From positions 1 through 42,158 of IMG/VR virus record IMGVR_UViG_3300021378_000055: a stretch of 42,158 nucleotides of DNA; one strand, 5' to 3'. The notes under the pieces were generated by a model. That model was not told where the DNA came from. It ran no database searches and saw nothing but the letters and a program-made list of their open reading frames with translations. Of the stretch, positions 14,521 through 42,158 are shown piece after piece. The stretch is from a virus. Position 1 is the first letter of the stretch. Each line of letters begins with the position of its first letter. The position numbers and the translations under genes are program-made.

Positions 14521-15207
14521 TCATCGACCAAATGCCCATTCACGTTCACGACACCACCAACATTCACCACAAGTTGTGGTCATCCAAACTGGACTGTCTC
14601 GATTGTGTCTGGCTTCCTGTTCACAACTTCTAGTGTAGGGAAATAATAACTTCATCATTCCCAATTGGTTGTACAGATGTGCTACCATTCTTTTATCAAC
14701 ATACATCAAAGGTAGATATCTCCAATTATTGATCCGGTCTTTTAATATAAATCTATCATGACCAGGATCACGTGCTGTATATCTGCCCTCAAGCAAATGT
14801 TTCTCTGATAGTGGAGGATTTTGCGTAGTCCCGTGAATAAAGAAGTTTGCAGTTCCTTTATTAGCCATCCCAGCTTCAACAATGTTTAAATCAGAACGTC
14901 TTTGGTCATCTGAAAAGTAAATATAGTGACTTTTAATTATATTCGTTCTAGTAAGTTGCAGCAATCTATCAACTACACTAGAACCATACTTGGCATTATA
15001 CCAGCCTTTGGGTTGGTTAGCACAAGTAATAAAATGTATTTCTGCATCTGGTACATGCTGTTCGCAATATTTTATTGTCATATAACCAAGAATGGCACTA
15101 TCAGCACCGCCGCTGAGGTTTACACATATTTTATTAATATCATCAGGTATATGAAAGGACATTTCCTGTCCGTGCGGATCAACATAATGGTTTACTGGAT
15201 TTTTCAT
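14521..15207 (-). CDS. QueC-like PP-loop enzyme (7-cyano-7-deazaguanine synthase family)
   Basis: The start is set at ATG 15207 (228 residues), not the TTG at 15231. The PP-loop SGGADS lies at 32-37. Near the C-terminus come PLMYVDKRMVAHLYNQLGM, then SC (194-195), then CGECWWCRER (213-222). This matches QueC, where PLMWIDKAETWAL precedes a four-Cys zinc site (TC...CGHCAAC). Family reaction: ATP-dependent conversion of carboxy-deazaguanine to preQ0, for queuosine or archaeosine in tRNA or deazaguanine in phage DNA. No other pathway gene is in the window. A late promoter (15211-15220) predicts a leaderless transcript. Other PP-loop activities are possible. Confidence 0.75.
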   Translation of the reverse strand: MKNPVNHYVDPHGQEMSFHIPDDINKICVNLSGGADSAILGYMTIKYCEQHVPDAEIHFITCANQPKGWYNAKYGSSVVDRLLQLTRTNIIKSHYIYFSDDQRRSDLNIVEAGMANKGTANFFIHGTTQNPPLSEKHLLEGRYTARDPGHDRFILKDRINNWRYLPLMYVDKRMVAHLYNQLGMMKLLFPYTRSCEQEARHNRDSPVWMTTTCGECWWCREREWAFGR

Positions 15208-32916: not shown

Positions 32917-34011
32917 TTATTCAGTAATTTTCTTTTTCATACTTTCTACAAACTGTTCACGTAGCCATTCAAAGTCATTAATTTTATTTAATGCTTCAAT
33001 GTCTCCTTGGTTAGCTGCTCCGTATGCTTTGCCTTCTAGAGCGCCTTTGATACAATAACGACCAAAACGTCCACCATTGTCTACAGTACACCATGTTTCC
33101 AAACGCTCGTCTGTTTCAGCTTGTTTCTGGTTGGGGTTAACTGATGACGCTAGTTTTACACATTCACGGAAAGCACTACGCCATGTACGGAATGGATCTT
33201 TGTTAAATCGTGTAATATTACTTACATCACTAACTGGTTGATAAAAACTTACACCTGTTGTAAAGTCTGGCAAAACGTGTCCCATTTCCAATAGTTGCTT
33301 GCGTGGGAATAGTTTTACACCGCCATATCCGTACTCAAGGTCGTTGATTGGGTTTCTCGCACTCCATACATAGGTAGTATTGTCTCTTTTGGACATTGGA
33401 GGGATATAATCAAAATTGAATCCTGGAAGTACATCTGCGTCAGCATCAACAATATATACCATTTCGGTAGATGCTTGCTCTGCTGCTTTTTTGTGTGCCG
33501 ATCCAATGCCTTCAACATTTTTTACGTGAATTGCATCTGGATAAATTTCCTTTAGCTTTTGGTAGTTACTATCTGCTTCTGCTTCGTGAAAGCTAATCAT
33601 AATAACATCGAAGTCAGTTTTGCTGTATGTTGCTGTAATTTTATTTTTTAATTTTCCATTTACTTGGCCGCCTGTTGGCACGAGTTTTACGTCTCCCCAG
33701 GCTACTGGAGTACCAGTTCGTTTAATTACTCTTGGGAATTCATGTATATAGTTTGCGTGAGAGCCATCAACTCTATAGTGCCAAGGAAAATCTTCTCTAA
33801 TATTTCCTACGCCTTCATCAACAACCCAAACCATAGGGGCTTCACCTGCATATTCTGACGCCAATTCCAATAGTGAATTTAAGGTTTTAATCTTTGGTGC
33901 AGTAATAACTGGATAGCTTTGGAAAATAAACTTTTTTAATCTGTCCCAAGGCGTAATTACATTTTGTCCTTCATATGATAATTTTAATCCGGATAAGTTT
34001 AAGTTGTTCAT
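32917..34011 (-). CDS. Glycosyltransferase-like protein (GT-A fold) 1
   Basis: The start is set at ATG 34011, whose ATGA overlaps the upstream stop, giving 364 residues; the TTG at 34017 is less likely. The core reads DFDVIMISFHEAEADSNYQK, then GIGSAHKKAAEQASTEMVYI, then VDADADVLPGF: a D-x-D metal motif with the preceding A-helix typical of GT2/GT-A enzymes. WHYRVDGSHANYIHEFPRV precedes it. Family role: sugar transfer from a nucleotide sugar. It forms a unit with a second GT-like gene and a hypothetical gene behind an early promoter. Target (phage DNA, protein or host surface) unknown. Confidence 0.75.
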   Translation of the reverse strand: MNNLNLSGLKLSYEGQNVITPWDRLKKFIFQSYPVITAPKIKTLNSLLELASEYAGEAPMVWVVDEGVGNIREDFPWHYRVDGSHANYIHEFPRVIKRTGTPVAWGDVKLVPTGGQVNGKLKNKITATYSKTDFDVIMISFHEAEADSNYQKLKEIYPDAIHVKNVEGIGSAHKKAAEQASTEMVYIVDADADVLPGFNFDYIPPMSKRDNTTYVWSARNPINDLEYGYGGVKLFPRKQLLEMGHVLPDFTTGVSFYQPVSDVSNITRFNKDPFRTWRSAFRECVKLASSVNPNQKQAETDERLETWCTVDNGGRFGRYCIKGALEGKAYGAANQGDIEALNKINDFEWLREQFVESMKKKITE

Positions 34012-34655
34012 TTGCAATCGCCTTTAATTGTATATGTTCTAGTACCCACATGAGAGATATATTCGCTCAGGTCATTGTCTAGCCATATTTTATATTTATA
34101 ACTTTTTGCTTTCTGGCAAAAGTATATATCCTCGCCTACTAAATTTGTATAGTTATCATTCCATTCTACACTAAAAAATGGCCGAGAAATGTTTTCATAA
34201 ACTTCACGTTTAACGAGCATACACCCTAGTCCGACTGCAAAAATTTCCTGTAGTCCGGTACCAGACATTACTCTATCGTCTAAATGATTTTGTGAAGTGA
34301 ATGCTACTGGTCTATGAGGAGGAACTCTCGTGCTGTAATTACATGCAACAATATCCTTTTCATGACCCAATAATGCTTCAATAGTAAACGTTGGAAATCC
34401 CATATCGCTATCTAACCACAAAATATGAGTACAATCAGTTGCTAGTATCTCATCAACTAATTGTTGCCTTTGCATTGCAACTTCACTACCCATAACCATA
34501 TGTAATGACACTTTTTGTCCAGTCTCGCCACACTTTTTCATAAGCATAGCGAGACTTTGAGTAAAGGTTGTCGTTACATGATCGCGCACAGGAACGGATA
34601 TTGCAATTTTTGTGTCTTGTACTTTTTTATGATAAAAGTTAGGAACACTTACCAT
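34008..34655 (-). CDS. Glycosyltransferase-like protein (GT-A fold) 2
   Basis: This 215-residue protein has IAISVPVRDHVTTTFTQSLA, then MQRQQLVDEILATDCTHILW followed by LDSDMGFP: a DSD metal site in the GT-A order. VACNYSTRVPPHRPVAF, AVGLGCMLVKREVYENI and FFSVEWND with GEDIYFCQKA complete the pattern of small phage GT-A enzymes. There is no clear ribosome-binding site; it is probably coupled to the gene at 34665. It overlaps the next GT-like gene by 4 bases. Confidence 0.8.
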   Translation of the reverse strand: MVSVPNFYHKKVQDTKIAISVPVRDHVTTTFTQSLAMLMKKCGETGQKVSLHMVMGSEVAMQRQQLVDEILATDCTHILWLDSDMGFPTFTIEALLGHEKDIVACNYSTRVPPHRPVAFTSQNHLDDRVMSGTGLQEIFAVGLGCMLVKREVYENISRPFFSVEWNDNYTNLVGEDIYFCQKAKSYKYKIWLDNDLSEYISHVGTRTYTIKGDCK

Positions 34656-35466: not shown

Positions 35467-35829
35467 TTACTCTAATGACTTGACCCATCTGAACTTTTCT
35501 GGCCCGTGCATATTATATGGTGTCAAAAGTTTATCTTTCCTAATTTCATTTAATTCGTCAGTGTAATGTACAATTAAATAATGGTTCATTTCTTGTATAG
35601 CAACGGCTGATTCCATAAAAATCTGAATTACGAATTTTCTCCCTAGTAATGTTACGTTATGAGTAAAAGGTATTCCTGTTTCATCTGTATAGCGCTGCAT
35701 CATCGCAATTGCTTTCTTGCACCATTCTGATTGTTCAAACTCAGCGATACTTTCAAATTTTAATGGTCCACCATAAATTAAAAATTTGTGTCCTCGTGAC
35801 CCATCTAAATCTAAATCATATTTTTCCAT
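35467..35829 (-). CDS. Hypothetical protein downstream of the large tail fibre
   Basis: This 120-residue alpha/beta protein (LDGSRGHKFLIYGGPLKFES, FTHNVTLLGRKFVIQIFMES) starts in the last codons of the tail fibre gene (14-base overlap), so it is translationally coupled to it. That location is where T4-like phages often encode fibre chaperones or adhesins, but no recognisable chaperone motif is seen. Name withheld. Confidence 0.6.
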   Translation of the reverse strand: MEKYDLDLDGSRGHKFLIYGGPLKFESIAEFEQSEWCKKAIAMMQRYTDETGIPFTHNVTLLGRKFVIQIFMESAVAIQEMNHYLIVHYTDELNEIRKDKLLTPYNMHGPEKFRWVKSLE

Positions 35830-38626
35830 TTAATTTATCAATCTCCTGCTTTAATTCTTCAATTTTCAAGTTTTGTTCTTTAATAGCTTCAATCAATACA
35901 CCAACAATGTTACCATATGCTACTGACTTCAGTCCTTCATCGTTAGTGTGTACTACTTCAGGAATAACATCTTCAACCTCTTGTGCAATTACTCCGATGC
36001 TCATTCTGTTGTCTTTTTCAAAACTTACGCCCCGTAATGCTTTTACTTTTTCCAAAGCGTTATCTATTTGTACTACATTATGCTTAAAACGTCTATCTGA
36101 AAATGCAGTGACGTCACCAGTGGCTACAATGTTACCAGTTACATTTAGTGTACCAGCTGTACCTGCAACTGTGCCGATTGTCAATGTTCCTGTCATTGTA
36201 TCGCCATCAGTATTAATAAATCTTGAATCTGATTCTGATTCAGTATAGTAACGTCCGTCATGGGTATGACTGTCATTTGTCACTTCGGCATTCAATGTTA
36301 CGTTTTGACTACCATCAACACTCACATTTCCTGATAAATCTCCACCAAGTGTAATAGTTCTAGCTGTATCCCATTTACTTGCACTTACTGCATTTGCAGT
36401 AGAACTTAGCTTCCCATCTAATGCGGTTTGTAAGCCAGTAATAAATGATATCGGGTGACTTGTTGGATGGGTATATACAGTATCAGTGAAAACTGCACCT
36501 GATGGTACATCTGTCAGTACTTGACTATCATCTACTTTAGCATCTAATGCGGTTTGTAGTCCGTCTACGTTGGCAATAGTATGATTGTGACTATCATCTA
36601 ATACTGTTACAGATAGTGTTACATTTTGTGATCCGTCAATACTTACATTACCAGAGGCGTCGCCACCAAGAGTAATAATCCTTGCCGTATCCCATTTACT
36701 TGCGCTTACTGCGTTTGCAGTGGCATTTAATTTCGTATCAATATTGGCTTGCAGTGTACTTTGTAATGATGCATTTGCTGCTGTTGCAGCTGCGGCTACA
36801 GCAGTATCAGCATTATCAACATATAATTTGGTAGTTGCATGACTATTATCTACCGGAGCCTGTGTTAAGTCTACTTCTCTGGCAATAAAACAATCTGCTT
36901 CCATTGCGCCCAAGACAAAACTTGCATCGCCAGTATTAATATCTCCGTTTGGTTCTGGTGCGTATTCACTGAACACTTTCCATCTAGTAGCACTAGCATC
37001 GTAAAATACACCAACGTGTGTGTAACCTGGTGCTGCCGTGCCGGTGTTGATGTTACTAAAAATGCCAGTATCAACAGCCAATGGTGCTGCTGTGCCACTC
37101 CATATGTCGCCCAGCGTGTGTCCAGTAGTTGAAGTCGCTTGGAATTTAATGTTGTTATCTAAATCTTGCTCGCCACCAGTAATTGCAATCCCAGTTGCTT
37201 CAGTAGTGGCGAAATTATCTTTTGACCATTCAAAAGTATCAGTAGCTCCAGTACCGTCAATTCTAACATAATATGTAGTTGTAGTAGTGCCTTCATAATA
37301 ACCTTCAAACGAAGCATCGTCTAATCCAGTACCAGTAAACACGGTATTGTCAGCACCAATAGCATCTCCTTGGTTTAAGTAGATAAAACTATCATCTACA
37401 CTTAGATTCGCTGCGCCAATACTAACTGTTGTACCTGTAACAAATAAGTCGCCGCCGACAGTTAAGTCGTTTGTTACACTTACATTTGCAGGCAAGCCTA
37501 CTGTAACTGATGCAGTTTCACTACCGCTTCCCGACACTTCGATTTCATTCAATGTTCCAGAAACACCAGCAACATAATTACCAGTAGTATCTGTACCAAG
37601 AGCTACACTATCAGTGTCTACACTTGATGCTTGAATTCCTAATGCATCAATTACTGTTTTTGTTACTTGTGTATCTGTATACGAATTAGCTGTTGCTATT
37701 GCATCAGACTCTGCTGTATCAGTGTATGTTTGATATGCAGATGTAATTGCTGTTTCACGTGTATCTGTGTATGCATTCGCTGTTGATATTGCATCAGACT
37801 CTGCTGTATCAGTGTATGTTTGATATGCAGATGTAATTGCTGTTTCACGTGTATCTGTGTATGCATTGGCTGATGTTTCTGCTGTATTTGCTTTTGATGT
37901 TGCGTCAGCCGAGGCTGTTGCTATTGCATCTGCTTCTGCTTGATCAACATACGCCTCTGTAGTATAATTATTATCTGTTAAGTATGTCTGTACTCTAAGA
38001 TCAGTATAATATAAATTAGATGCTTCAGGAATATCATTAGTTGTTAAACTTCCAGTCCCTGATGATACTGCGGCGTCTGTGTATGCATTGGCTGATATTA
38101 CTGCATCTGCTTCTGCTGTATCGGTGTATGTTTGATATGCAGTTGTGATTGCTGTTTCACGATCATCAGTGTATGCATTGGCTGATATTACTGCATCTGC
38201 TTCTGCTGTATCAGTGTATGTTTGATATGCAATCGTGATTGCTGTTTCACGATCATCAGTGTAAGTGTTAGCGGAAATTAGCGTGGCTGCATCTCTTGCG
38301 TCAATATAGTCTGTCAATGCACTTTCAGAATCTATAACGTCTGAAAGTAACGCAAATGTACCAGTAATACTGGGCAAAGTTAATACACTATCTTCAGTAA
38401 CACCAGTAGGTTCAGGTGCCTGTATTTTTATTTCTCTTGGGTCAGCAATTGGCCCTTCAAAAACTAATCTCGCACCATCTCTCAACCAAACTATTTTGTC
38501 ATCACCTGAGTTATCTGAGTCAGGATATAAACTAATACCGGCTGGAGATCTTAATTCTATATCACCAGTCAGTGAAGATGATGTTAGAATGTTCTCGTTT
38601 ATTTGTGATAAGTCTTTAAAAGCCAC
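35816..38626 (-). CDS. Large tail fibre with C-terminal S74-type domain
   Basis: This 936-residue protein starts with a GTG at 38626 behind GGAGAAATAAA. Residues about 110-320 are tandem 30-residue Tyr/Asp/Thr-rich repeats (AYTDTRETAITSAYQTYTDT type). Then come beta-rich adhesive modules with N-A-V-S-A-S-K-W-D-T-A-R units, and a C-terminal intramolecular-chaperone domain (SDRRFKHNVVQIDNALEKVK, GVIAQEVEDVIPEVV, YGNIVGVLIEAIKEQ) with a coiled-coil end. Known role of the S74 domain: it assists trimerisation and then cleaves itself with a Ser-Lys pair. It is a receptor-binding protein candidate. Late promoter 38651-38660. Confidence 0.9.
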   Translation of the reverse strand: MAFKDLSQINENILTSSSLTGDIELRSPAGISLYPDSDNSGDDKIVWLRDGARLVFEGPIADPREIKIQAPEPTGVTEDSVLTLPSITGTFALLSDVIDSESALTDYIDARDAATLISANTYTDDRETAITIAYQTYTDTAEADAVISANAYTDDRETAITTAYQTYTDTAEADAVISANAYTDAAVSSGTGSLTTNDIPEASNLYYTDLRVQTYLTDNNYTTEAYVDQAEADAIATASADATSKANTAETSANAYTDTRETAITSAYQTYTDTAESDAISTANAYTDTRETAITSAYQTYTDTAESDAIATANSYTDTQVTKTVIDALGIQASSVDTDSVALGTDTTGNYVAGVSGTLNEIEVSGSGSETASVTVGLPANVSVTNDLTVGGDLFVTGTTVSIGAANLSVDDSFIYLNQGDAIGADNTVFTGTGLDDASFEGYYEGTTTTTYYVRIDGTGATDTFEWSKDNFATTEATGIAITGGEQDLDNNIKFQATSTTGHTLGDIWSGTAAPLAVDTGIFSNINTGTAAPGYTHVGVFYDASATRWKVFSEYAPEPNGDINTGDASFVLGAMEADCFIAREVDLTQAPVDNSHATTKLYVDNADTAVAAAATAANASLQSTLQANIDTKLNATANAVSASKWDTARIITLGGDASGNVSIDGSQNVTLSVTVLDDSHNHTIANVDGLQTALDAKVDDSQVLTDVPSGAVFTDTVYTHPTSHPISFITGLQTALDGKLSSTANAVSASKWDTARTITLGGDLSGNVSVDGSQNVTLNAEVTNDSHTHDGRYYTESESDSRFINTDGDTMTGTLTIGTVAGTAGTLNVTGNIVATGDVTAFSDRRFKHNVVQIDNALEKVKALRGVSFEKDNRMSIGVIAQEVEDVIPEVVHTNDEGLKSVAYGNIVGVLIEAIKEQNLKIEELKQEIDKLNGKI
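37700..37870. repeat. Tandem 90-bp repeats in the fibre gene (block 1)
   Basis: Nearly two full copies of a 90-base unit encode 30-residue repeats (DTAESDAISTANAYT then DTRETAITSAYQTYT). Most third positions are also identical, which points to recent duplication. Confidence 0.85.
38080..38270. repeat. Tandem 90-bp repeats in the fibre gene (block 2)
   Basis: Two near-identical copies encode the related unit DDRETAITIAYQTYT then DTAEADAVISANAYT. The block is separated from block 1 by non-repeated sequence. Confidence 0.8.
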
Positions 38627-38663: not shown

Positions 38664-39176
38664 TTATGGAGTTTCTTGATAAGTAGAAGGTACAAACTGT
38701 ATCCAAGCGGTGCCGTCATATCCTTCAAACATCTTTGTCTGTGTGTTAAAGAAAATCATACCTTCTGATGCTGGTGACGGCCTTTCTGATTCTATTCCCC
38801 TTGGAGATCTAAAAACAGTGGGATATAAAGCGCCTGAATTATCAATTACAGGTTGTCCTTGTGAATTAATAATGTTACCTTGTAAATTTCCTACAAAACT
38901 AGATGCTTCTATACTTTCCAGTACCAATGTTGACTTATCACTGGAAACTGGGCTAATATCATTATTGGATTCTGTGCTTGTATAGTTTTCTATCAAATAA
39001 TATTTTTGAGTTTCCACATCTCTAACCAAACCACTATAGGTGTCTGTACCGATCTTTCCCAAAAATCCAATATCAGTAGCTGTTGTGTTGTCTTTTCCTA
39101 CAACTACTACTGGGTCACTAAAACTGGTCTGTGTGCTTTGCAAGTTAGTGGTTTGTATTGTTCTAAATGCCATCAT
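38664..39176 (-). CDS. Small tail-fibre-like protein with C-terminal beta unit
   Basis: This 170-residue protein opens with MMAFRTIQTTNLQSTQTSFS and ends with GMIFFNTQTKMFEGYDGTAW followed by IQFVPS. That last unit is like those in gp14, gp15 and the sheath (small residue, aromatic, then G-x-x-W). GALYPTVFRSPRGIESERPS is typical of fibre-side modules. It lies between the two fibre genes with its own late promoter. Ribosome-binding site TAGGAGAAA; either of two adjacent ATGs can be used. Confidence 0.6.
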   Translation of the reverse strand: MMAFRTIQTTNLQSTQTSFSDPVVVVGKDNTTATDIGFLGKIGTDTYSGLVRDVETQKYYLIENYTSTESNNDISPVSSDKSTLVLESIEASSFVGNLQGNIINSQGQPVIDNSGALYPTVFRSPRGIESERPSPASEGMIFFNTQTKMFEGYDGTAWIQFVPSTYQETP

Positions 39177-39208: not shown

Positions 39209-39218
39209 GTATTTATTC
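39209..39218 (-). promoter_or_regulatory. T4-type late promoter (GAATAAATAC)
   Basis: Minus-strand GAATAAATAC lies within the last codons and stop of the gene at 39213, with a predicted leader of about 28 bases for the gene at 39176. Confidence 0.65.
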
Positions 39219-39479
39219 ATTCTGGTTATTTAATATTGATTCCATAATGGACTTGATATTTTCCATTTTATCATCTAAATGCTTTACTGCTTCAACTAAA
39301 ATTGCTAATACCAATCTATCATTTTCTGACAAAACTGTTTTTTCATTATTATGGATGAACATATTATTCAAGTCTTCTGCCCGTATACCAGAATTTTCTC
39401 CATCAGTTACACCCTGCAATTCTATGAGTTTGCTCAGGGCACCAGATATTATTTTTAAGTCATCCATTGGGCAATCCAT
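39213..39479 (-). CDS. Small coiled-coil protein, possibly a fibre chaperone remnant
   Basis: This 88-residue (or 84 if started at 39467) protein has a C-terminal helix (NDRLVLAILVEAVKHLDDKM, ENIKSIMESIL) that resembles the terminal helix of S74 fibre domains (IVGVLIEAIKEQNLKIEELK). GIRAEDLNNMFIHNNEKTVL precedes it. It overlaps the oxygenase gene end. No strong ribosome-binding site is present. A trimerisation helper is a guess. Confidence 0.5.
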   Translation of the reverse strand: MDCPMDDLKIISGALSKLIELQGVTDGENSGIRAEDLNNMFIHNNEKTVLSENDRLVLAILVEAVKHLDDKMENIKSIMESILNNQNE

Positions 39480-40176
39480 TTTTTATAATCTGTTCAGTTT
39501 TTTCATTTTTTAGCCCAGTGATTTGCATAGTTAGTCTATGAAATGATGATGCGTTTGCAGTGGCATGTGGGGTGTTTGGCCAATCAAAAATATGAACATC
39601 ACCTGCTTTCCAATTATCATATATTAAATTTCCATACATAAAAAACTGTCCTGGTTTCCAATCCTGTAACATAATAGTCAGTCGTACTACTCGGCTCGGG
39701 TCCTGGGGATGTATTTTCCATAATTCATCGTCAACGTGTATTCTATACATCCCTCCTGGGGGTTGTATCACAAGCCTCGTTGTATGAGCAATACCTTCTA
39801 TCGAGTGGTCTTCAATGGAAAACATTTTTTGTAGTTTTTTTAGTTCATAAAATGGTGTGGATGGATCAGTAAATGCCTTAGATGTTATGCTCTTTATTGT
39901 TCCTGATAATTTGTCATAGTTAGGCGCAGTAAATGCCAAATCTTCTGTATTCTCTTCATATTTAATAAATCGATCTGCCGCATTAGTAATGTCTTGAACT
40001 TCTTGACTGAACATGTCGCCCACATTTCCTAAAATTTTAAACCAATCACCCGGTTGGTCCTGTGTAGTTTCATCGAAATGATATTCACTGTTTGACATAT
40101 TACATTCCCATCTTCCCTGAAGAAACTTCTTATTCGGTAATATTATATTTTTGTTCCAATCTGTATTATGCCTCAT
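39460..40176 (-). CDS. 2OG-Fe(II) oxygenase
   Basis: This 238-residue protein has the full set: H147-x-D149 in RIHVDDELWK, R165 and strands (VVRLTIMLQDWKPGQFFMYG), GDVHIFDWPNTPHATANAS with H204, and R214 in SFHRLTMQITG, the likely 2OG-binding Arg. This is the double-stranded beta-helix core of prolyl- and similar hydroxylases. Known reaction: oxidation of a substrate with 2-oxoglutarate and O2. The start at 40176 uses AGGAAA inside the ParB-like gene (11-base overlap). Location between fibre genes suggests modification of virion proteins; this is inference. Confidence 0.8.
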   Translation of the reverse strand: MRHNTDWNKNIILPNKKFLQGRWECNMSNSEYHFDETTQDQPGDWFKILGNVGDMFSQEVQDITNAADRFIKYEENTEDLAFTAPNYDKLSGTIKSITSKAFTDPSTPFYELKKLQKMFSIEDHSIEGIAHTTRLVIQPPGGMYRIHVDDELWKIHPQDPSRVVRLTIMLQDWKPGQFFMYGNLIYDNWKAGDVHIFDWPNTPHATANASSFHRLTMQITGLKNEKTEQIIKNGLPNG

Positions 40177-40612
40177 AATCTAAATTTCCTACAAATTTTA
40201 ATACTTCATCAACTGTATTAGCCCCAGTGTCGTCCATAAACATTTTAATTAGATCAGCAATTTGACCTGGTGCAAATTGTTCAACCGACGGTATATCTTT
40301 AAAATACATACTATCACACGTATATACTCCACAATGTATTTTATCCATACCACTTATGTAAGAGGCGGTTGCACTGTGCTGTCCCTCCCACAAATAGTAC
40401 TTTCCATTAATTTTAGCTACACTACTAGCTCTCAGTAATGCTGGGTGAAAGTTTTCTAAAATATCCAGAACATGCTGAACGTTAAATGTGTCCCATTGAT
40501 TTTGCGTAACATACAATTCATCATATGGGATATCCAACCATTGCAACTTGTCGAATCTAATATCGTACGTTCTTTCAAAAGATAAAATTTCAGAGTGATC
40601 TATGTGTTTCAT
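40166..40612 (-). CDS. ParB/sulfiredoxin-fold-like protein
   Basis: This 148-residue protein has FHPALLRASSVAKINGKYYL followed by WEGQHSATASYISGMDKIHC and GVYTCD. It matches the ParB/Srx-type pattern (place-holder strand, then DGQHR, then helix, then G-x-x-x-V/I-x-C-x-V), with Ser80 in place of the usual Arg in GQHR. Family activities include CTP-dependent DNA clamping, nuclease and ATP-dependent transferase. It is the first gene of a late unit with the 2OG oxygenase and has a predicted leaderless start. Confidence 0.6.
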   Translation of the reverse strand: MKHIDHSEILSFERTYDIRFDKLQWLDIPYDELYVTQNQWDTFNVQHVLDILENFHPALLRASSVAKINGKYYLWEGQHSATASYISGMDKIHCGVYTCDSMYFKDIPSVEQFAPGQIADLIKMFMDDTGANTVDEVLKFVGNLDYEA

Positions 40613-40616
40613 AGTT

Positions 40617-40626
40617 CTATTTATTC
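40617..40626 (-). promoter_or_regulatory. T4-type late promoter (GAATAAATAG), leaderless spacing
   Basis: Minus-strand AATAAATA is followed by five bases and then ATG at 40612, exactly the spacing seen for the QueC-like gene at 15207. Confidence 0.65.
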
Positions 40627-40634
40627 ATAAAAAA

Positions 40635-40656
40635 GGAGCAGTGTTTCCACTGCTCC
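40635..40656 (-). terminator. Rho-independent terminator of the second fibre gene
   Basis: Arms GGAGCAGTG (40635-40643) and CACTGCTCC (40648-40656) with a T-run on the minus strand leading directly into the late promoter at 40617-40626. Confidence 0.85.
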
Positions 40657-40678: not shown

Positions 40679-42158
40679 TTACTTAGATGCTTTTAATTCT
40701 GCTACTTGAGCTGATAGTTCTTTAACAGCTTCAATTAGTAGACCAGTAATGTTACCATAAGCAACGTGACGAACACCATTTGCGTCTGTCTTAACTGCTT
40801 CTGGTAGAACTGCTTCAAGTTCTTGAGCGATAACACCAGTTGAAACTGAGCCATCTTCGATACGCTCGAATGTTACACCACGGATCGCTTCAACACGACC
40901 TAGCGCACCATCAATTACTTGAACGTTAGTTTTTAGGCTATCATCTGAATAAGCTGTGATATCACCAGATGCTGTGAAGTTACCAGTGAATGAACCGCTC
41001 ATTGCAACGCCATCTGCTGACACTGTGATACCGTTACCGCCACCAACGTGGAATGTACGGCTAGCACCTAAGCTACCGCCGCCTGTTAGACCGTTACCTG
41101 CTGTCATTACTGTACCAGTTGATGCTTTGCCGCCTAGTGCAGTTGTAATTGACGATGCGTAACTTGCATTATCACCAATAGCTGCCGCTAGTTCATTAAG
41201 TGTGTTTAGTGCCGCTGGAGCACCGGCAACTAGATTGTTGATTGCTGTTGTGATATCAGCTGGTGTTGCTTTAGTATCTACAAGGTCTTTAAGAACTTTA
41301 CCTTGTGCTGCTGATAGTGACTGGTCTGTAGCTGTTGATGTTAGACCATTAACAACTGCACGCCATGTGTTTGTGTTAGCATCTGAAATTGATACTGACT
41401 CTGATGTACCGTCACCCTTATGAATTGTGATTGTGTCGTTTGATACTGTTAGCGCATCTGTTGCTCTCATTACTTGTGCTGAATTAGTAGTTGCATAAGA
41501 ACCTGCTGTTTGATAACGACCATCTAGATCAACCGCTACTGAACCACTGTTACGTGTCAGTGTTAGAACACCGTTTGATGTGCTGAATGCTGCACCTGTT
41601 ACATATGTGTTGCTGTTAGCATCACTTGTTGTAACTGAGAACGTTGTGTTGTCACCACGTGTAAATGTAATTGTATCGTTTGATACTGTTGCACCTTTTA
41701 CATACGCACTTGAACCAATTGAAACTTTGTTTCCCAGTGCAGTTGTGACTGATGCTGCATATGATGCGTTATCACCAATTGCTGCTGCTAGTTCATTAAG
41801 TGTGTTTAGTGCCGCTGGAGCACCTGCTACCAATGAATTAATTTTTGTATCAATACGTGAATCAATTGTGCTTGCTGCTGATGAACCTAGTGATAGGGCA
41901 CCGTCAACTCTTAGTGTACCGTTAACATCTAGAGTATCGCCTGAGTCAATGCTAACATCGTCTGAGAAGCGTACTTCCTTCTTGAAACGTGTCTCGCTGT
42001 TAACTGTGTTTCCAAAGCTCTCATCGTCTGCGTCAGTTGCTTCACCGTCTGTAGTTGTTAGCTTTGTTGCTAGAATAGAGATGTTACGCTCAATGTCAGC
42101 CATACGACGTAGACTTGACTTTGAACCTGACATGACGATATCATCATCTGCAATTGTT
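40679..42158 (-). CDS. Tail fibre with C-terminal S74-type domain (5' end beyond window)
   Basis: The frame has no stop up to the right edge, and the ATG at 42133 lacks a ribosome-binding site, so the true start is probably outside the window. Visible: about 490 residues with a helical start (ADIERNISILATKLTTTDGE), two near-identical units (NNLVAGAPAALNTLNELAAA, then IGDNASYA), Asn/Thr-rich strands, and a C-terminal S74 domain (SDDSLKTNVQVIDGALGRVE, GVIAQELEAVLPEAVK, YGNITGLLIEAVKELSAQ). It parallels the larger fibre at 35816-38626 and ends in a terminator. Confidence 0.85.
   Translation of the reverse strand, partial: TIADDDIVMSGSKSSLRRMADIERNISILATKLTTTDGEATDADDESFGNTVNSETRFKKEVRFSDDVSIDSGDTLDVNGTLRVDGALSLGSSAASTIDSRIDTKINSLVAGAPAALNTLNELAAAIGDNASYAASVTTALGNKVSIGSSAYVKGATVSNDTITFTRGDNTTFSVTTSDANSNTYVTGAAFSTSNGVLTLTRNSGSVAVDLDGRYQTAGSYATTNSAQVMRATDALTVSNDTITIHKGDGTSESVSISDANTNTWRAVVNGLTSTATDQSLSAAQGKVLKDLVDTKATPADITTAINNLVAGAPAALNTLNELAAAIGDNASYASSITTALGGKASTGTVMTAGNGLTGGGSLGASRTFHVGGGNGITVSADGVAMSGSFTGNFTASGDITAYSDDSLKTNVQVIDGALGRVEAIRGVTFERIEDGSVSTGVIAQELEAVLPEAVKTDANGVRHVAYGNITGLLIEAVKELSAQVAELKASK

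Follow-up and report, generated by a model that had tools for sequence, protein, structure and literature searches.

Why do three overlapping genes lie between two tail-fibre genes of an uncultured virus? The question is raised by a 42,158-base fragment of record IMGVR_UViG_3300021378_000055 (the window, meaning the whole stretch of DNA analysed), in which tail-sheath families are found and the terminase has its closest relatives among Pseudomonas PA5oct-type giant phages (54.5%). A first-pass annotation had described a late unit of a ParB-like protein, a 2OG oxygenase and a small coiled-coil protein between two S74 fibres, and had proposed that fibres are matured or diversified enzymatically, for example by hydroxylation, with the ParB-like protein assisting the oxygenase. 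We observe that the three open reading frames are present on the minus strand as claimed (Table 1), with overlaps of 11 nt (ParB-like gene and oxygenase) and 20 nt (oxygenase and small gene), and that both flanking fibres match S74, with a 170-aa gene without S74 also intervening between the small gene and the downstream fibre. The entire three-gene cassette recurs in 3300020175_000009 and 3300020185_000120 at 92-100% identity. Between the window and two close relatives, pN/pS is 0.17-0.19 for the oxygenase, indicating by this ratio that the gene is under purifying selection, and 0.12 for the small gene, a value that comes from only 3 differences; the ParB-like gene shows 2 synonymous and 0 amino-acid changes.

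Table 1. Features in and around the three-gene cassette, in window coordinates
Feature	Position	Strand	Evidence
ParB-like protein, 148 aa, fibre-linked 'GxHS' family	40166..40612	-	AF2 model, Foldseek, VIA, gene neighbourhood
2OG/Fe(II)-type oxygenase, 238 aa	39460..40176	-	H147 D149 H204 R214, pN/pS
Small gene, free-standing divergent S74 chaperone domain, 88 aa	39213..39479	-	blastp, hhalign
GQHS motif, ParB-like residues 77-80; Ser replaces P-motif Arg	40373..40384	-	
Upstream S74 fibre (PF13884 E 7.9e-12), runs off window	40679..42157	-	
170-aa fibre-associated protein	38664..39176	-	
Downstream S74 fibre, 936 aa (S74 E 1.7e-14)	35816..38626	-	
Late-promoter box AATAAATA, 5 nt 5' of ParB-like ATG	40618..40625	-	
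Intrinsic terminator, upstream fibre gene	40635..40656	-	
Late-promoter box of 170-aa gene, next transcription unit	39210..39217	-	
Glycosyltransferase-like protein (Anp1, below cut-off), same module	34008..34655	-	
Second glycosyltransferase-like protein (GT2, below cut-off)	32917..34017	-	

With respect to the ParB-like protein, a ParB/sulfiredoxin fold is predicted for residues about 14-112 from an AF2 model built on an 11-row alignment (pLDDT 72). The best Foldseek matches of this model include sulfiredoxin, ParB, PadC, Noc, SbnI and free serine kinase (best E 1.1e-3), with the best 50 rows being mostly ParB, Srx, SbnI, SerK, Noc or KorB, and VIA-align places it on sulfiredoxin 6ky4 with Z 8.2 over 86 residues (rmsd 2.8), a Z of about 8 being one that can also reflect a common arrangement. 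Single-sequence and profile searches of the PDB identified neither the ParB-like nor the oxygenase family; the PDB sequence profiles gave no ParB-fold signal for the ParB-like protein (ParB 6t1f at only E 1.1), and its match to DUF6551 (PF20188) did not reach the gathering cut-off (15.5 bits versus 26.8, E 0.013). Among 50,697 phage records, tblastn gave no match to the window protein at E<=1e-5, and looser limits with ParB-like proteins returned no match or unconvincing ones, and a scan of genome contigs for the family found no bacterial relative. Both the ParB-like protein and the oxygenase are outside every named family. The predicted fold is shared with ParB, Srx, SbnI, SerK and DUF6551; unlike those proteins, the family has Ser for the P-motif Arg and its gene is always behind a fibre gene, and unlike ParB it is too short for the HTH and dimer domains. 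The reading of GQHS instead of GQHR in the window is confirmed, and the P motif is G[QH]HS in 11 of 11 aligned rows and in three members found later (L053, L055 and L060), the NTP-binding P motif GxxR being absent from every member found. In the available text of PMC12704722, Arg to Ala in this motif abolished nucleotide binding, and we therefore expect the family to have lost the usual mode of NTP binding.

We surveyed the locus using the N-terminal end of the upstream fibre as query, which gave at least 27 loci; 3 end inside the fibre, leaving 24 readable ones (L048-L050 counted among them) in a sample where many contigs are near-duplicate pairs and all records are fragments. Among the 24 readable loci listed, the ParB-like gene is behind the fibre in 11, and the small S74 gene is present in 3; 2 loci have the oxygenase flanked by fibre genes, and 5 have it at any point downstream. 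The other 13 lack the ParB-like gene, indicating that it is dispensable, which counts against a role in fibre maturation. A scan with the ParB DNA signature, made independently of the fibre, returned 12 stretches, 9 in known contigs and 3 in new ones, the latter again with the gene directly behind a fibre gene. Altogether, 14 other contigs carry the ParB-like gene, and in all 14 its immediate upstream neighbour is a fibre gene (in L005, a second S74 fibre); in L005, L015 and L016 it lies between fibre genes with neither oxygenase nor small gene. Members with GQHS follow S74 fibres (8/8, window included), and members with GHHS follow fibres with another C-terminal domain (6/6 typed, the L049 fibre left out). 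These results suggest a fibre-linked gene family, and the association appears, from the contigs compared, to be a feature of uncultured marine giant phages; the linkage could also reflect common descent of the locus. A ParB-like protein beside fibres is not reported in the available text of the literature surveyed (e.g. PMC7289586, PMC9602691, PMC12704722). For the other fibre C-terminus (labelled GVVS) a Peptidase_G2-type domain was considered, an assignment that Pfam does not support. The L005 locus also encodes an S74 fibre that has collagen-like GXY repeats and lies immediately 5' of the ParB-like gene (L005:3462-5351) and an 869-aa fibre-like protein in which a papain-type cysteine protease-like segment is seen by eye (GSCVGNA, GHAM, NSWG; L005:6408-9017).

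Whole-record searches of 30 records, all fragments, found the ParB-like gene in 14, the oxygenase in 6 and both in only 2. The absence of a window-family oxygenase from 12 of the 14 other ParB-like-bearing records indicates that the ParB-like protein is not an obligate oxygenase partner, and 4 of the 30 records carry the oxygenase with no ParB-like gene. Pairing of the ParB-like protein with the fibre is thus supported and obligate pairing with the oxygenase is not; the proposed ParB-like/oxygenase pair does stand beside fibres in three cassette contigs.

The transcriptional layout is consistent with late expression of the ParB-like gene. The terminator of the upstream fibre gene is immediately followed by a late box and then by the ParB-like gene. 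The minus strand of the window carries 14 NATAAATA boxes, against 2 on the plus strand; by itself, the short motif GAATAAATA shows no enrichment in the window (2 found versus 1.07 expected). The description of an overlapping late unit beside fibres is supported, the box being of the T4 type. The distance from box to ATG is exactly 5 nt in 12 of 13 ParB-like representatives, with L053, which has a longer leader, as the exception; for L015, L016, L038, L048 and L050 this spacing puts the start at an ATG internal to the ORF first listed. An offset of 5 is also the commonest among 103 boxes in 22 loci, with 13 cases, 12 of which are the ParB-like gene. The T4 late box lies at -13 to -6 in the available text of PMC1524935, and at a 5-nt spacing the A of the ATG would therefore be +1, which predicts a leaderless late mRNA for the ParB-like gene in 12 of the 13 representatives. 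Since the spacers have diverged in sequence across the representatives, selection on the spacing itself is suggested. Elsewhere in the window, a gene with a QueC-like PHROG match (15207..14521, minus strand) has the same late box 5 nt from an in-frame ATG and may also be leaderless.

The small gene does not encode the coiled coil first suggested; blastp, tblastn and hhalign instead identify it as a divergent stand-alone S74 chaperone domain. It aligns to the S74 domain of the window's own fibres (blastp, 7e-4 and 9e-5), and hhalign against S74/ICA gives probability 87 and E 3.8e-6 over 76 columns, compared with a best probability of 0.5 in 40 column shuffles. The hmmsearch score against S74 is 17.5 bits (best of 1000 shuffles, 8.5), and a Pfam S74 match was not found at E<=1. 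At a loose tblastn limit the protein matches 25 phage records (E 0.8-9, 81-86% of the protein each), of which those informatively annotated are tail-fibre proteins and the remainder hypothetical or unannotated. Like the Peptidase S74 intramolecular chaperone, the 88-aa protein aligns to the ICA domain, but it is a separate gene and lacks the Ser-Lys cleavage dyad (S1264/K1269 in T5 pb1 in the available text of PMC4690869 and PMC3742443), the aligned part beginning past the dyad. A chance ORF or decay was rejected, as the frame is kept, the copies in two further contigs are 99% identical and a separate 65-aa example is found behind an S74 fibre with neither ParB-like gene nor oxygenase (L037:4665-4862); decay after duplication could nevertheless still apply. 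A stand-alone S74 gene is not reported in the available text of the literature surveyed (e.g. PMC4690869, PMC3742443).

We tentatively favour the view that the locus is a late-expressed unit for fibre maturation, put together from genes that move independently, since the gene linkage points to an unrecognised fibre-maturation module and not to a simple oxygenase pair. Its constant part would be the ParB/Srx-fold protein, with its gene occupying the position that gp38 has in T4 and Tfa in Mu, made late from a box at fixed spacing on a predicted leaderless mRNA; having presumably no NTP switch now, it would act as a fibre-binding factor, either an assembly chaperone or a tip protein. In the window phage this gene would have gained two passengers, both inserted ahead of the next fibre gene: the overlap-coupled oxygenase, which may act as a hydroxylase on the fibre, on a glycan of the virion or on some related substrate, and a free copy of the fibre's folding domain, a cleavage-dead S74 domain that may aid fibre trimer folding in trans. 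In the available text of PMC7289586, the chaperone genes of T4, Mu and V22 come immediately after the fibre genes, and this positional parallel to gp38, Tfa and gp27 makes a fibre-maturation role, by analogy as an intermolecular fibre chaperone, our best guess for the ParB-like protein. As in those systems, a small gene is directly 3' of the fibre gene; the differences are the ParB/Srx-type predicted fold and the fibres themselves, which here also carry S74 or another C-terminal domain. Counting against the maturation role, S74 fibres already have an intramolecular chaperone and the oxygenase family is also found away from fibres. The fuller claim, that an Arg-less ParB/Srx fold forms a novel type of maturation or tip protein for the tail fibres of marine giant phages, made from a leaderless mRNA and accompanied in one lineage by a trans-acting S74 domain and a fibre-modifying oxygenase, we regard as unlikely in its entirety. 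If true, it would mean that a nucleotide-switch fold has been reused in receptor-binding fibres, that trans-acting S74 offers a second route to fibre folding and that a leaderless late gene is added to T4-type transcription.

The alternative that survives best, although we do not think it probable, is that the three genes serve host takeover or counter-defence and are accessory cargo in an inter-fibre recombination hotspot, unrelated to the fibres. This would fit the variable inter-fibre content (nothing, the ParB-like gene by itself, the small S74 gene by itself or the full set) and the other contexts known for the oxygenase family; it accords poorly with a ParB-like gene that is never away from a fibre gene (14/14) and with a small gene that descends from a fibre domain.

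The oxygenase has the complete 2OG active site that was first read from it: H147, D149, H204 and R214 are at the stated residues and invariant in a 7-row homologue alignment, providing the HxD...H metal triad and the 2OG-binding Arg of the 2OG/Fe(II) superfamily. As to a double-stranded beta-helix fold, the AlphaFold model made from these 7 rows has pLDDT 35 and supports no fold assignment, and profile matches in the PDB to AtsK, MysH and TauD are weak (E 0.2-1.2). The window oxygenase has no match in Pfam or PHROG at E<=1 and no relevant one in NCBIfam, the L013 homologue matches PF05118 below the cut-off (E 0.016), no oxygenase match reached a curated profile cut-off, and a scan of genome contigs for the oxygenase core found no bacterial relative. 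The HxD..H..R motif is common to the cyanophage 2OG/Fe(II) oxygenases (S-SCSM2R; Asp_Arg_Hydrox PF05118), and the S-SCSM2R homologue is 35% identical over residues 140-228; compared with these enzymes, the window oxygenase forms its own subfamily with an N-terminal extension.

The family occurs in 10 contigs, in 3 of which, the fibre-cassette contigs, it lies between fibre genes, a fraction that partly bears out the absence of the ParB-like/oxygenase pair from fibre neighbourhoods in relatives and so counts in part against the original proposal of fibre hydroxylation. In L034-L036 it is downstream of two glycosyltransferase-like genes and adjoins a 192-aa protein, in S-SCSM2R, L013 and L014 it belongs to a cluster of glycosyltransferase, AHBA synthase, radical SAM maturase and amidinotransferase genes (S-SCSM2R annotation), and in L061 it is away from a fibre; such varied contexts indicate a portable accessory. 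The cluster and the L061 homologue would suit an enzyme of metabolism or glycan tailoring that rides in the late operon beside a separate ParB-like fibre factor, and a link to 2OG and nitrogen is proposed for cyanophage 2OG oxygenases in the available text of PMC3037559; we hold this to be improbable too, as 6 of the 10 contigs place the oxygenase inside a fibre/glycosyltransferase module.

Fibre hydroxylation by the oxygenase is possible, but the original proposal, in which the enzyme modifies fibre residues in partnership with the ParB-like protein, is very unlikely. In its favour are the intact active site, the juxtaposition and overlap of the late genes within the inter-fibre region of 3 contigs, and the nearby glycosyltransferase-like genes, a setting that resembles hydroxylate-then-glycosylate systems; these are set against the records in which either gene occurs without the other and against the collagen-like fibre record L005, which lacks such an oxygenase. 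Collagen-type hydroxylation was rejected, L005 holding the sole collagen-like fibre found. The reading as a fibre-maturation unit shifts attention from the oxygenase, the variable part of the locus, to the ParB-like gene, its constant part.

Further oxygenases and oxygenase-like proteins were observed in the surveyed contigs. The 192-aa protein beside the oxygenase homologue in L035 (L035:12481-13059) shows HRD and a later His by eye, with no Pfam match, and is possibly a second oxygenase. L048:9615-10310 is a PhyH-family 2OG oxygenase (PF05721, E 5.1e-13) within a few kb of the fibre and ParB-like genes, and look-alikes are seen by eye in the other GHHS loci. L007, L013 and L014 carry a cyanophage-type cluster with glycosyltransferases, an AHBA synthase-like protein, radical SAM, amidinotransferase and 2OG oxygenases.
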